40,271 nucleotides of DNA. It comes from Calditrichota bacterium (GTDB lineage: Bacteria; Calditrichota; Calditrichia; Calditrichales; J004). How positions within the stretch are numbered: the first letter of the stretch is position 1; the number at the start of each line of letters is the position of its first letter. The stretch covers positions 1 to 40,271 of the forward strand of contig RFFS01000144.1 in NCBI GenBank assembly GCA_003696775.1, read 5' to 3'. Below, in pieces: positions 2,220 to 8,273 of the stretch. Position numbers and translations under genes: made by a program. The notes beneath the pieces were generated by a model that did no database searches, was not told where the DNA came from, and worked only from the letters and a program-made list of their open reading frames with translations.

Positions 2220-4724
2220 ATGCTCAGAATATTTTCATTCTTATTTTTATTTGTTTCGGTTATCCTGGCGGATAATATCCAAAAGCTCGGTAATTGGTAT
2301 CCGGGCGAATTTTGCAACGATATCTGGGGCTATGACGCGCCCGACGGTCGTTATTATGCCATAATGGGCGCCCAAAGCGGAACCTATGTTCTGGATGTGA
2401 CCGATCCGGCTTCCATTCAAAAAGTGGGCTATGTGGCCGGTTCAAGTTCCACATGGCGTGATATTAAAACGTATCGGCATTACGCCTATGTTACCAATGA
2501 AACATTCGGCCTTGACATCATCGATTTACAAGACGCGCCCAACAGTATCCGGCATGTTCAGATGATGAATGTTCAGAATTTCCATAATCTGTATATAGAC
2601 ACCACAACCGCCACCATGTACTGCGCCGATGCTTCCTCATCGGGCAGTGTGCATATTTTCTCACTGGCCGATCCTGAAAATCCGGTCGAAATAAATACCT
2701 TCGGTACGGAAAGTCATGATATTTACGTTCGGGACAGCATCGCATATGTGTCCCAGGGCAGACAGGCCAGTATCGGCATTTACGATGTATCCGATCCCAT
2801 GAATGTGGTTACATTGAAAACCATTCATATTCCCAATGGCGGTTATGCCCATAACAGTTGGTTGAATGAAAGCGGCGAATATTTGATCAGCACGGAAGAA
2901 ACGGCGGGAAAAACCGTTAAAATGTGGGATATACGTGATCTTAATAATATCGAAATGGTTTCGGAAGGCCTGGGCGCCAATCAACTGGCGCATAACGCGC
3001 ATATTGAAGGGGAATTCGCTTATGTTTCCCATTACGAAGCCGGGTTGGTGATTTTCGATGTATCCCATCCCGATAAAATGGCCCTGGTGGGCAATTACGA
3101 CACCTATCCCGAAGATAATCACAGCAATTACAATGGCGACTGGGGCGTGTTTCCCCACAGCCGTTCCGGCAATGTTTATGTATCCGATGAAGACCGCGGT
3201 TTGTTTGTGTTTGAGTTTAACGGCACCCATGCCAGTTACTATAAAGGCGTGGTGCGCGATGCCCAGACCCTGCAACCCGTCAGCGCCGCCCGTTACGAAT
3301 TAAACGGGAATGAAACGGGCCGGACGGATGAAAACGGCCTGTATGATTTCGGTGTAGGCTTATCCGAGGATGCCACACTTGAGGTCAACGCGTATGGTTA
3401 TCAAACCGCAACACTGACCCTTTCGCCCAACGGTGGCGTCACCGATAGCATGGATATTCTTTTAAATTCCGCACCCCGTACGGACTTTCAGGTTGTTGTT
3501 CAAACCGAGGACGGCGTGCCATTGCAGGGATTTCAGGTTGCCTTCCAGGCCGAAAGCCGCTGGTTGGACGCACCTCAATCCCACACCGCCATGACCGATG
3601 CCAACGGAAGCGCGCGTTTTGAAGATTTGCCGGTTTCGGATGGAGACGCCGCGTATTACACGCATTTTGTGGTTACCGGGCAATTTCCGTATGCCACCGT
3701 CACTGAAGATACCATTGCACTTGAGAACCAGCCGGAAAATAATATAACAGTAGAAATGAGACCGGCGGATGTTTTGGTTATTAACAGCGATCCCAACGGC
3801 GCGTACGGGGAATATCTCGAGGAAGCCCTTAATGAACAGGGCTACAGCGATTTTGTTCTGGCTACGCAAAAAGAAGGCCGCCTGCCTTCGCTGGAGGATA
3901 TCCGCCTTTTTCAAACGCCGCATGTTATCTGGATGACCGGTGATGCTTCCGTGGATGTATTACCCCCTGCCGCACAGGATTCCATCATCCGTTATCTCAA
4001 AAACGGAATCAATGTAATCCTTACCGGACAAAATATCGCCGAATATCTCAACCAGGAAAATCCGGCGTTTTTAAGTGACTGGCTGGGCGCCTCCTTTATC
4101 GACAACAGCAATTCCAAGATTTTAAAGGGTAATGCGGAGCACCCGATTGGTAGTCAGATCAACCGCATCGGCTTGTATGCCAGCCAGGCCGCCGCCAATC
4201 AGGTTTCGCAGGATATGTTGTTGGCGGACAGCTCCCGGGGCGCCGGCGCGGCCTTGTATTACGGAGGGTCCACCTATAATGCCGCGGCGGTCACCCGCGT
4301 TTTTGAAGATTATGGCAGCGTGCTCTTTTTTGCCGGTTTCGGGATGGAAGCGGTTTATAAAAGCAGTAGCACCATGGTGACACGCGGAGAATTGATCAAT
4401 GATATTTTTAACTGGTTCGAGTCACCCACGGCTTTAAAACCGATTCAAAATATTACGCTTAACGCTTTTGACCTGCGACCAAACTATCCCAACCCTTTTA
4501 ACCCGTCCACCCGCATCGTGTTCGATGTGCCCCATGCATCACATTTGCGTTTATCGGTCTTTGATGTAACAGGTAAAGAAGTAACTACTTTAATTGATCG
4601 TACCCTGAGTCCCGGCCGGCATCAGGTAACGTTTCAGGCGAAAGATCTCGCCTCCGGTGTCTATTTTTACAGACTACAAACAAAAGAATTCACCCAAACA
4701 CGTCGCATGCTGCTTATCCGTTAA
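2220..4724 (+). CDS. Secreted LVIVD-repeat (choice-of-anchor B type) protein with T9SS sorting domain
   Basis: 834 residues. I chose the ATG at 2220 rather than the TTG at 2214 because AAAGG lies 9 bp before it and the protein then begins with a clean signal peptide (MLRIFSFLFLFVSVILA). Domains in order: LVIVD-type beta-propeller repeats (about 20-345; e.g. YVLDVTDPASIQKVGY, GIYDVSDPMNVVTL, LVIFDVSHPDKMALVG), a carboxypeptidase-regulatory-like beta sandwich (about 350-425), another Ig-like domain (about 430-520), a Rossmann-like domain resembling ThuA/glutamine-amidotransferase folds (VLVINSDPNGAYGEYL to about 735), and a C-terminal sorting domain with NYPNPFNPST and GVYFYRL. It is probably exported by a type IX-like route and held at or released from the surface. 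Function unknown; a cell-surface adhesion or binding role is inferred. Confidence 0.85.
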   Translation: MLRIFSFLFLFVSVILADNIQKLGNWYPGEFCNDIWGYDAPDGRYYAIMGAQSGTYVLDVTDPASIQKVGYVAGSSSTWRDIKTYRHYAYVTNETFGLDIIDLQDAPNSIRHVQMMNVQNFHNLYIDTTTATMYCADASSSGSVHIFSLADPENPVEINTFGTESHDIYVRDSIAYVSQGRQASIGIYDVSDPMNVVTLKTIHIPNGGYAHNSWLNESGEYLISTEETAGKTVKMWDIRDLNNIEMVSEGLGANQLAHNAHIEGEFAYVSHYEAGLVIFDVSHPDKMALVGNYDTYPEDNHSNYNGDWGVFPHSRSGNVYVSDEDRGLFVFEFNGTHASYYKGVVRDAQTLQPVSAARYELNGNETGRTDENGLYDFGVGLSEDATLEVNAYGYQTATLTLSPNGGVTDSMDILLNSAPRTDFQVVVQTEDGVPLQGFQVAFQAESRWLDAPQSHTAMTDANGSARFEDLPVSDGDAAYYTHFVVTGQFPYATVTEDTIALENQPENNITVEMRPADVLVINSDPNGAYGEYLEEALNEQGYSDFVLATQKEGRLPSLEDIRLFQTPHVIWMTGDASVDVLPPAAQDSIIRYLKNGINVILTGQNIAEYLNQENPAFLSDWLGASFIDNSNSKILKGNAEHPIGSQINRIGLYASQAAANQVSQDMLLADSSRGAGAALYYGGSTYNAAAVTRVFEDYGSVLFFAGFGMEAVYKSSSTMVTRGELINDIFNWFESPTALKPIQNITLNAFDLRPNYPNPFNPSTRIVFDVPHASHLRLSVFDVTGKEVTTLIDRTLSPGRHQVTFQAKDLASGVYFYRLQTKEFTQTRRMLLIR

Positions 4725-4764: not shown

Positions 4765-6147
4765 ATGAAATTCTCCAAATATTTTTTAGTTTTGATGCTT
4801 GCCATGCTGCTGACTTTTTCCTGTCAGACGAAAATCAACGATACGGATGATACCATCCATTATGATGAGATCACCGATATTCATTATGATGCACACATTC
4901 AACCTTTGTTGGATGAATACACGACCCGTTTGCAAAATGAGAGTCTGTATCCCGAAGGGCTGGAGACGGATAGCTGGCAGCATTTGTTCGAGGGTTGGAA
5001 AAACGGCGCGGCGGTTATTCCTTACGATGCGCAAGGCAGTTTATTTTATCAATTAATCGGAATGTTAAAAGATACAACCGAAGGTGACGCGGCCAGGCGC
5101 GACCTTATCCGCCGCTGGATCGAGGCCGGCGCTCCCAATGAACAGGGCGTTATTCCTTTCGACGACGCCACGGATATTGTTTATGTTTGCAATCAGGGCG
5201 CCTCGTCTGTTTCCCTTGTGGATGTCAACCATCTGGTTGTGATGCGCACCCTTTATCTCGAGGATTATGGCTTTTCCGACCATGCCAAACCGCACCACAT
5301 CGTCGTGGAGCCGGATGGCACGGCCTGGTATGTGAGCCTGATAGCCGACGGAAAGGTGGTGAAATTTGACTCGCGCAACCGTATTGTGGGCAGTGTGGAT
5401 ACCCCCACACCGGGTTTGATGACACTGCATCCTACACGCCGCATCCTATATGCCGGCCGTTCGATGACAGCGCCCAATCCTCCCTCGTCCGTTCTGGCCA
5501 TCAATACATCCGATATGACTTACAGGGAAATACCCGTTCCCTATGCCCGGCCTCATGCGTTGGCCATTCAACCCAACGGGGATTATCTCATCTCCGCCAG
5601 TCTTGTGGAGAATAAATTTGCCGTTATCGACGCCCAACGTGATGAGTTGGACGCGACTTATACTTTCCCGGATACCAATCCGGTATATGTGCAATGTGTT
5701 TTTGTGCCGGACGGGACTTCCTTTTTCGCAACCGGGCAGTTGAGCGCGACGCTTTATCGTTTTGCCATGGACAGTGAAGGTGTTGTAAGCGCCGACGGGA
5801 GTTACGCCCTGGGCGAACAACCCTGGCATCCGGTAATAATCCCGGACGGTACGCAATTGTTTGTGGGCAATAAGGTATCCAATTCGGTTTCCGTGTTCGA
5901 TATCATCGGCAATCAGGTGAGCGCCACACTGCAGGGAAATGGTGTGGCATCACCACACGGCAGCACCGTTACCTCCGACGGAAAATATGTATTCATTTCC
6001 AATCAGAATACCAACGGCGATTATCAGCCGCCGTTTCGGGATGACGCCGCCTCGGTGGGTACCATAACCGTATTTGACGCCACGACGCATGCTTTGGTTA
6101 AAACCATAGAAGTAGGGACATCGCCCTCAGGTATTGCGCATAAATGA
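4765..6147 (+). CDS. YVTN/YncE-type beta-propeller lipoprotein with haem-less cytochrome-c-like N domain
   Basis: 460 residues. The start is the ATG at 4765, preceded by GAGGT; the frame is open further upstream but that part lies inside the preceding gene. A lipoprotein-type signal (LLTFSC, Cys20) follows, with an imperfect lipobox. Residues about 42-125 align by eye with planctomycete-type cytochrome c domains: HIQPLLDEYTTR, GLETDSWQHLFEGWKNGAAV, GSLFYQLI, and LIRRWIEAGAPN, but the CxxCH haem motif is replaced by EYTTR (51-55). The rest is a YVTN-like propeller (VYVCNQGASSVSLVDV, LFVGNKVSNSVSVFDI, YVFISNQNTNGDY). It lies between two T9SS-tailed proteins and overlaps the next gene by 4 bp, so the three probably act together at the outer membrane. 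Exact role unknown. Confidence 0.85.
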   Translation: MKFSKYFLVLMLAMLLTFSCQTKINDTDDTIHYDEITDIHYDAHIQPLLDEYTTRLQNESLYPEGLETDSWQHLFEGWKNGAAVIPYDAQGSLFYQLIGMLKDTTEGDAARRDLIRRWIEAGAPNEQGVIPFDDATDIVYVCNQGASSVSLVDVNHLVVMRTLYLEDYGFSDHAKPHHIVVEPDGTAWYVSLIADGKVVKFDSRNRIVGSVDTPTPGLMTLHPTRRILYAGRSMTAPNPPSSVLAINTSDMTYREIPVPYARPHALAIQPNGDYLISASLVENKFAVIDAQRDELDATYTFPDTNPVYVQCVFVPDGTSFFATGQLSATLYRFAMDSEGVVSADGSYALGEQPWHPVIIPDGTQLFVGNKVSNSVSVFDIIGNQVSATLQGNGVASPHGSTVTSDGKYVFISNQNTNGDYQPPFRDDAASVGTITVFDATTHALVKTIEVGTSPSGIAHK

Positions 6148-8273
6148 TAGTACGTTGTGTTGGAGCCCTATTTGCGGTTTTAACTGTTTTATGGGCGCAA
6201 CCCGGGCCGTTTAACCGTGTTTTACATCCTTTTGATATCCAGCGTGAAGACGGCCGTCCCAGCCAGCGGCCGTTCTTAGGCGGATATAACACGCCGCGCA
6301 TACAATGGTCCGATTATAACGATGATGCCCTGCCAGATTTATTCCTTCAGGAGCATGACGATTATGTGACGCTCTATCTCAATACCGGCAGCCGGACACA
6401 ACCGCGTTTGCAATGGTTTGACGATGACGTCTTCGGCATACGCACGGGCGCCTGGTTTCGACTGGCGGATGTGGATAACGACGGGGATGATGATCTGTTT
6501 TGCGCCGGTGACGATCAAACCATCCGATATTTTATGCGCCGCGACAGCGATTATGTGGAAGCTTCTAACGGATTGATGGATGACGAGGGTGCGTTGATAT
6601 TGTCGGAACTAACCAGTATCCCGGCATTTTACGATATCGATTGCGACGGTGACAAGGATATGTTTTTAGGTCGGCAGACCGGCACCATTACATTTTATGA
6701 ACATACCGGCGCTTACGATAACGCCGGCGTTCCCATTTACCACTTTGTTATGGATAACTGGCAGGATATTCAAATCATTGGCGGAGGCCGGCCCCTGCCC
6801 AAAAGCGGCCTTCTGCACGGCGCCAACAGTTTAACCTTCGGCGACCTGAATAATGACAACGCCGCGGAAATGATTTACGGTGATTTCTTTTCTCAAAGCC
6901 TGTATTATTTTACAAATACCGGTCGTTGCGACAGCGCCCGCATGGAACGCACCATGGATAGCTATCCTCCGGAAACACCCCTGCTTACCAGCGGCTTTAA
7001 CGCGCCTTCCCTTTTTGATGTGGACGGTGACGGCGACCTCGACCTTTTCGCGACGGTTTTGGGCGGCGCCTTCTCGCTTTCGCAAAGCCTGAACAGTAAT
7101 TTCTATTATATGGAAAATATCGGAAGTGCCGCGCAGCCGGAACATATCATTTTAAGCGATAACTATCTCGATGTATTCGACATGGGCAATGAATGTGTGC
7201 CGGCGGTTTATGATCTGGATGATGATGGTGATCCGGACTGGATACTCGGTAATCAGACGGAAACCATCGCTTCCTCCTCGCACGGACAGGCGTTGGTGTA
7301 CCGCAACACGGGCAGTGCTTCCAAACCGGTTATGCGTTATGACCCATCCCTTACCATCGATACCGATAATATCTACAACTGTGCCCCGGAAATTTTTGAT
7401 CTGGATGATGACGGCGATCCCGACATGCTTATGGGGCGCAGCAATGGCAAACTGGCCTATTTTGAAAATCAGGGTAGGGCGGACAACCCTTTGTTTGTGC
7501 GTATTACCACCAAATACATGGATATTGATGTGGGCAGCAGAAGCGTGCCGCGCCTGGCGGATTGGGACGGTGACGGTGACGCCGATTTATGTATCGGTGA
7601 GTTTGACGGTTTGCTCAATTTTTATGAAAACACCGGTGACCCTCAAACGCCTCAATTTAAGGCAATCGTGTTGCCGGTTGCCGGATACCAGGCGCGTGGA
7701 TGTGCCTATCCGGCGTTTTACGATTGGGATGCGGACGGCGATCCGGATTTGATAGTCGGGTTTGATCAGGGTGAAGTACAGTTTTTTGAATGCACGCCGG
7801 AACAGGACACGCTTTTTCACCGGGTGGATGTATTGAATTTGCGTCCCGCGCGGAAAACCGCACCGTTTATATACGACTGGGACAATGACGGTGACGGCGA
7901 CCTGCTTATCGGTACGCAAGGCGGCGGACTATTTGCCTGGGAAGCGGGAACGCCTACCGCTATTGTTGCACCTGCATACACTCCGACGCCGCAAAACATC
8001 ACCCTTTCCGAAGGATGGCCCAACCCTTTTAACGGCCGTATTCAATTCTCCCTTACCATAAAAAGGACGGCGCACGTTGCGGCCAGTATTTATGATGTCA
8101 ACGGTCGGCGCATGATCAGCCTTTACGACGCGGCCCGGCAATCCCCCGGACAGCGTGTTTTTCAATGGGACGGCCGGAACCGGCTGGGGCAGTCGGTCGC
8201 CTCGGGAATTTACTGGCTGGTTGTACATAGCGGCCGACAGATACAGTCGCGTAAAATCGTCTATATAAAATAG
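6144..8273 (+). CDS. Secreted FG-GAP/VCBS-repeat propeller protein with T9SS sorting domain
   Basis: 709 residues starting with a signal peptide (MIVRCVGALFAVLTVLWAQ). The start codon overlaps the previous stop (ATGA), so the two genes are translationally coupled. From about residue 109 to 590 there are at least eight acidic calcium-loop repeats such as DVDNDGDDDLF, DIDCDGDKDMF, DVDGDGDLDLF, DLDDDGDPDWI, DWDGDGDADLC and DWDNDGDGDLL, each followed by phrases like YFENQG or YENTGDP; this is the integrin-like VCBS propeller. One repeat (DLNNDNAAEMI) has lost most acidic ligands. The C-terminal 90 residues carry a T9SS type A-like tail (GWPNPFNGR, then SGIYWLVV). Probably a calcium-stabilised surface protein that binds carbohydrate or another protein; the ligand is unknown. 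Confidence 0.88.
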   Translation: MIVRCVGALFAVLTVLWAQPGPFNRVLHPFDIQREDGRPSQRPFLGGYNTPRIQWSDYNDDALPDLFLQEHDDYVTLYLNTGSRTQPRLQWFDDDVFGIRTGAWFRLADVDNDGDDDLFCAGDDQTIRYFMRRDSDYVEASNGLMDDEGALILSELTSIPAFYDIDCDGDKDMFLGRQTGTITFYEHTGAYDNAGVPIYHFVMDNWQDIQIIGGGRPLPKSGLLHGANSLTFGDLNNDNAAEMIYGDFFSQSLYYFTNTGRCDSARMERTMDSYPPETPLLTSGFNAPSLFDVDGDGDLDLFATVLGGAFSLSQSLNSNFYYMENIGSAAQPEHIILSDNYLDVFDMGNECVPAVYDLDDDGDPDWILGNQTETIASSSHGQALVYRNTGSASKPVMRYDPSLTIDTDNIYNCAPEIFDLDDDGDPDMLMGRSNGKLAYFENQGRADNPLFVRITTKYMDIDVGSRSVPRLADWDGDGDADLCIGEFDGLLNFYENTGDPQTPQFKAIVLPVAGYQARGCAYPAFYDWDADGDPDLIVGFDQGEVQFFECTPEQDTLFHRVDVLNLRPARKTAPFIYDWDNDGDGDLLIGTQGGGLFAWEAGTPTAIVAPAYTPTPQNITLSEGWPNPFNGRIQFSLTIKRTAHVAASIYDVNGRRMISLYDAARQSPGQRVFQWDGRNRLGQSVASGIYWLVVHSGRQIQSRKIVYIK

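Follow-up and report, generated by a model that had tools for sequence, protein, structure and literature searches.

Can a cytochrome c domain be kept after its haem has gone? The question was raised by a gene in the window (the whole stretch of 40,271 nucleotides from a Calditrichota contig), which encodes a lipoprotein of 460 residues with a cytochrome-like head and a β-propeller. The initial annotation had described the head as a planctomycete-type cytochrome c domain lacking its haem motif and possibly serving a non-redox purpose at the cell surface. The span given for it, 4888–5139, corresponds exactly to residues 42–125 of the product, and the three peptides quoted from it were all present.

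Layout of the lipoprotein and diagnostic residues of the head

The likely start codon of the gene is the ATG at 4765, the stop lies at 6147, and the gene occurs as a single copy in its genome. The features discussed below are the following:

2220..4724, + strand: LVIVD-repeat protein with a C-terminal sorting domain, upstream, a conserved member of the cassette
4765..6147, + strand: coding sequence, 460 residues, lipoprotein with a haem-less cytochrome-like head and a YVTN/lactonase β-propeller
4765..4824, + strand: signal peptide with a lipobox at Cys20 (LTFSC), read from the sequence; Cys20 is almost invariant in the alignment
4858..5145, + strand: haem-less, PSCyt1-derived head, residues 32–127, 96 residues
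4921..4935, + strand: TTRLQ (residues 53–57), by alignment the exact counterpart of CTSCH in haem members
4996..4998, + strand: Trp78; Trp or Tyr where the haem is missing, whereas the six CX2CH heads and 11 of the 13 outgroup heads have Ser
5053..5055, + strand: Leu97; Leu in all five haem-less heads, Met in all six CX2CH heads
5059..5088, + strand: residues 99–108, a shortened loop; in the haem members it is longer and contains PHP or RMP, the putative distal ligand
5161..6144, + strand: β-propeller, residues 133–460, assigned by family scores, with His177, 264, 355, and 398 kept
6144..8273, + strand: FG-GAP-repeat protein with FlgD_ig and sorting domains, downstream; its start and the stop of the propeller gene overlap

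The lipobox places the protein probably at the cell envelope, in agreement with the surface location proposed initially. After Cys20, the first cysteine is Cys142, inside the propeller. Since residues 21–141 are free of cysteine, a CX2–5CH motif is impossible in the head. The replacement of CxxCH was thereby upheld, with the motif absent at the true aligned position, although the replacing residues had been named as EYTTR (51–55) and the correct register is TTRLQ. The aligned counterparts in the other haem-less heads are GDMLS, ETLLN, ATILN, and AGILA. The second Cys is replaced by Leu56 in all five haem-less heads, and the histidine of the motif became Gln, Ser, Asn, Asn, and Ala, respectively. 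The RMP of the outgroup aligns with the PHP of the CX2CH members, and this segment is deleted in the haem-less heads. The Met of RMP is of the usual kind of distal ligand, and the RMP/PHP residues would provide that ligand in the haem heads. With the Cys pair, the His, and the RMP/PHP loop all gone, the attachment site, the proximal ligand, and the putative distal ligand were lost together. Thus, the head of the 460-residue protein has neither a haem attachment motif of a c-type cytochrome (CX2CH or CX3–5CH) nor a distal axial ligand (Met or His) in the loop that should carry it.

Six diagnostic positions are common to the five haem-less heads: Glu51, Tyr52, Leu56, Pro63, Trp/Tyr78, and Leu97. 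Trp78 may act as a cavity filler. We considered whether the head binds a cofactor or a small ligand in the old pocket, for instance non-covalent haem through His44, a quinone, or a lipid. The conserved sequence skeleton and the invariant His44 are compatible with such a pocket, and according to PMC4451467 a b-type cytochrome can arise when alanine replaces both cysteines of a cytochrome c. However, the members with covalent haem have His44 as well, so that it is no new ligand, the histidine of the motif and the distal loop are missing, and the Leu and Trp found where the cavity is supposed to lie suggest that the pocket is filled. We regard ligand binding as unlikely.

The propeller scored above the cut-offs of Lactonase PF10282 (37.1 bits, cut-off 21.7) and TIGR02276 (44.3 bits, cut-off 27.85). 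The scores remained below the cut-offs for the L-NosZ equivalog (52.4 bits, cut-off 700), the hydrazine synthase β equivalog (45.5 bits, cut-off 560), and Cytochrom_D1. The four propeller histidines (5293–5958; KPHH, RPHA, PWH, and PHG) occupy the same register of four blades. All four were invariant in 13 of the 13 closest relatives, and two of the four in 26 of 26. By their placement, they possibly bind a metal within the central channel.

Relationship of the head to haem-bearing cytochromes

A search of 40 genomes of the phylum found the gene in 11, including its own genome, and 9 genomes belonging to the same class had full-length intact homologues. Beside the same propeller, homologues were found both with CxxCH and without it, a comparison that the initial annotation had proposed. 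Six full-length relatives carry CX2CH (L004, CTSCH; L006 and L008, CVSCH; L009, CISCH; L010 and L011, CTGCH). Four are haem-less (L003, L005, L007, and L026) and come from three genomes, as L005 and L026 belong to one. The haem-less sample thus consists of only five sequences, with the 460-residue protein included. Two shorter relatives, L002 of the same family and L031 from a Bacteroidota metagenome-assembled genome, have a signal and a propeller without a head. The relatives in three other phyla (L046–L049 and L065–L073) all combine CX4CH with the RMP motif, as against CX2CH with PHP in the six haem-bearing relatives of the phylum. This pattern suggests, at the level of aligned residues, a Met-to-His swap of the putative distal ligand in the haem heads of the phylum, together with a shorter attachment motif. 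The stand-alone PSCyt1-like lipoproteins of the phylum (L084, L088, L091, L092, and L093) carry CX5CH, such as CAAGGNCH, CAAVGVCH, and CAMPGGCH. This is an unusual haem motif that escapes simple CXXCH scans.

A profile built only from the CX2CH heads recognized the head of the 460-residue protein with 59.9 bits (E = 1.4e-16), and a profile from the heads of the other phyla did so with 43.7 bits. Among 10,000 shuffled sequences, the top scores were 12.2 and 7.5 bits, respectively. The resemblance, at 59.9 versus 12.2 bits, is therefore not due to chance. Profile–profile comparison of the haem-less and haem heads with hhalign gave a probability of 99.9 (E = 2e-31) over all 96 columns. The haem heads in turn matched PSCyt1 (PF07635) in 12 of 12 cases at E ≤ 0.1 (best 3.9e-12), and four of the five full-length proteins checked exceeded its curated cut-off. 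The head under study matched no meaningful Pfam or NCBIfam family and did not reach the PF07635 cut-off. Annotation by family profile misses it, since a match to the profile depends mainly on the CXXCH region. Weak PF07635 matches (best E = 0.0077) were obtained for the remaining four haem-less heads, and in two haem-less full-length proteins the weak match covered the model only from position 12 onward, beyond the motif. Homology to PSCyt1 extends over the whole length through the haem-bearing orthologues, with a common skeleton (G-L...SW/SY, GS..G..VIP, S.L, and RWI..GA), whereas CXXCH and the distal ligand loop are lacking here. Judged by these comparisons, the head shares common descent with the PSCyt1 members, which bears out the planctomycete-type ancestry first assigned to it.

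Sequence searches of Pfam, NCBIfam, and the PDB with the head alone or with the haem-less profile returned no cytochrome. Designed TIM barrels matched by the haem-less profile in the PDB (E = 2e-6) were dismissed as repeat artefacts, no single stretch being significant. The single-sequence AlphaFold model of the head showed four helices with a pLDDT of 48, which is too poor for comparison, and that of the mature protein had a pLDDT of 36. A Foldseek search of the PDB with the head model gave no meaningful match. Judging by its homology with the haem heads, the haem-less head likely retains the cytochrome c fold.

FoxE is an iron-oxidising dihaem cytochrome. Among solved structures, FoxE (PDB 5mab) came closest to the haem heads (E = 2.7e-14, with two stretches matched), but it carries haem, the solved chain has no propeller, and the haem-less profile did not find it. 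Hydrazine synthase offers a second likeness, with a weak match of the α subunit (5c2v_A) to the haem head (E = 0.0012) and a related propeller in the β subunit (5c2v_B; E = 3.7e-20). There, however, the two are separate chains, and we know of no haem-less version of these subunits. Cytochrome cd1 combines a cytochrome c head with a propeller, and NirF-type proteins have the propeller without the head; NirF matched our propeller weakly, although both belong to the d1 haem family. Haem-less cytochrome c domains are known in principle. Some SoxA proteins lost one of two haems and kept the cytochrome c-like domain, in an unrelated protein and context. The open-licence literature yielded nothing relevant on haem-less cytochrome c domains on propellers.

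Selection on the haem-less heads and their history

The five haem-less heads aligned over 96 columns with zero gaps, and 31 of the 96 columns were invariant. L007 and L026 were 74% identical in the head and 56% in the propeller. The pN values were 0.21 for the head and 0.29 for the propeller, with synonymous sites saturated. The haem-less heads are conserved at least as strongly as the propeller. These results bear on the possibility that the head is a decaying relic, tolerated as a linker after haem loss, whose next step would be loss of the domain as in L002. The headless propeller of G004, a genome of the same family, and the long branch of the 460-residue protein in the head tree would fit such decay. 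On the other hand, the exact length is kept, the invariant columns extend across genomes, and the other haem-less heads are conserved as much as or more than their own propellers. Better conservation of the head than the propeller in the closest pairs is not the mark of decay, and we consider the relic explanation unlikely. We favor, with some confidence, the reading that a PSCyt1-type head lost its haem in an ancestor within the phylum and has since been maintained as a module free of haem.

The two domains gave different histories. In the propeller tree, the haem-less proteins were scattered, requiring at least three changes of state, and a single clade was rejected (AU p = 1e-103). In the head tree, the haem-less heads formed one clade with a support of 100/99. 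After removal of the motif and loop columns, the support was 84/88 with all rows and 95/92 within the phylum. The head of L003 was 65% identical to that of L026 and 47% to that of L004, and its propeller 36% and 54%, respectively. When informative sites were scanned with the diagnostic columns removed, the best break in L003 fell near residue 170 (p = 2e-9 before scan correction). A break at residue 165, the position obtained from a sliding comparison, gave p = 7.7e-9. In at least this one case, the head was exchanged between propeller lineages. The same test on the 460-residue protein, with the diagnostic columns removed, was not significant (p about 0.6), and an independent haem loss in its own head is possible.

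Taken generally, haem could have been lost several times independently, with convergence to the same residues, rather than once with later exchange of the head. The changes of state demanded by the propeller tree alone point this way, and so does the head of the 460-residue protein, which in the masked columns was 46% identical both to the haem head L008 and to the haem-less L007. Against repeated losses stand the identical 96-residue length, the same deletion, the six common positions, and the L003 mosaic, which was significant without the motif columns. We hold convergence to be rather improbable. That a cytochrome c head was made into a haem-free binding module once, and then moved between propeller genes by recombination, is a still tentative account.

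Gene cassettes and the proposed role of the head

The gene lies in a cassette of the order LVIVD–propeller–FG-GAP. The same order was found with a haem head in G029 and without a head in G004 and in the Bacteroidota relative L031. Thus, the haem state varies within one cassette type, and, as the headless forms (L002 and L031) show, the cassette can do without docking by the head. A second order, propeller–pentahaem cytochrome–FG-GAP, occurred with haem heads in G028 and G038 and with haem-less heads in G025 and G027:C35. It was also found in G275 of another phylum (CX4CH) and, with a barrel gene in between, in G033. The pentahaem cytochrome between the propeller and FG-GAP genes is C554/C552-like (L052:8453–9817, L053:5902–7278, and L058:2537–3898). 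These loci suggest an undescribed surface electron-transfer cassette.

Two causes of haem loss were rejected from the gene content. The genome of the 460-residue protein encodes at least three PSCyt1-like CX4CH proteins, so the organism still uses c-type haem, and an organism-wide loss of cytochrome c was ruled out. Its search for a pentahaem homologue gave none at E = 1e-10. Loss of a pentahaem partner does not explain the loss of haem either: the haem-less loci in G025 and G027:C35 adjoin the pentahaem gene, and G029 keeps its haem head without a comparably similar pentahaem relative. Directly upstream, at 49–2120, lie genes for gluconate 2-dehydrogenase subunit 3 and a GMC oxidoreductase. 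This pair was not supported as a partner, having no match in any related locus searched.

In the mechanism that we propose, the losses seen in the PSCyt1-type cytochrome c head (the two cysteines, the histidine, and the loop of the distal ligand) would have taken place in an ancestor within the phylum. The helical core of the cytochrome would persist, with the haem cavity filled by the bulky side chains of Leu56, Trp78, Leu97, and Tyr52. Such a head would carry no electrons and would serve as a rigid element for docking, placed between lipid anchor and propeller. Its partners in a surface complex may be the FG-GAP protein together with the LVIVD protein here or the pentahaem cytochrome elsewhere. 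A haem-free docking or spacer module is the most likely role. From the selection on the head, the surface cassette, and the fact that neither ligand is left, we propose a non-redox role, probably in protein–protein contact, in line with the initial proposal.

Clear cases of c-type cytochrome domains that are under selection without haem seem rare. Here, related proteins in matching operons carry heads with haem, heads free of haem, or no head, which makes the part of the haem in a surface complex testable by swaps of natural parts. If there was a single conversion followed by recombination, the same cassette with haem, with a haem-free head, and with no head would be a natural experiment on the purpose of the haem.
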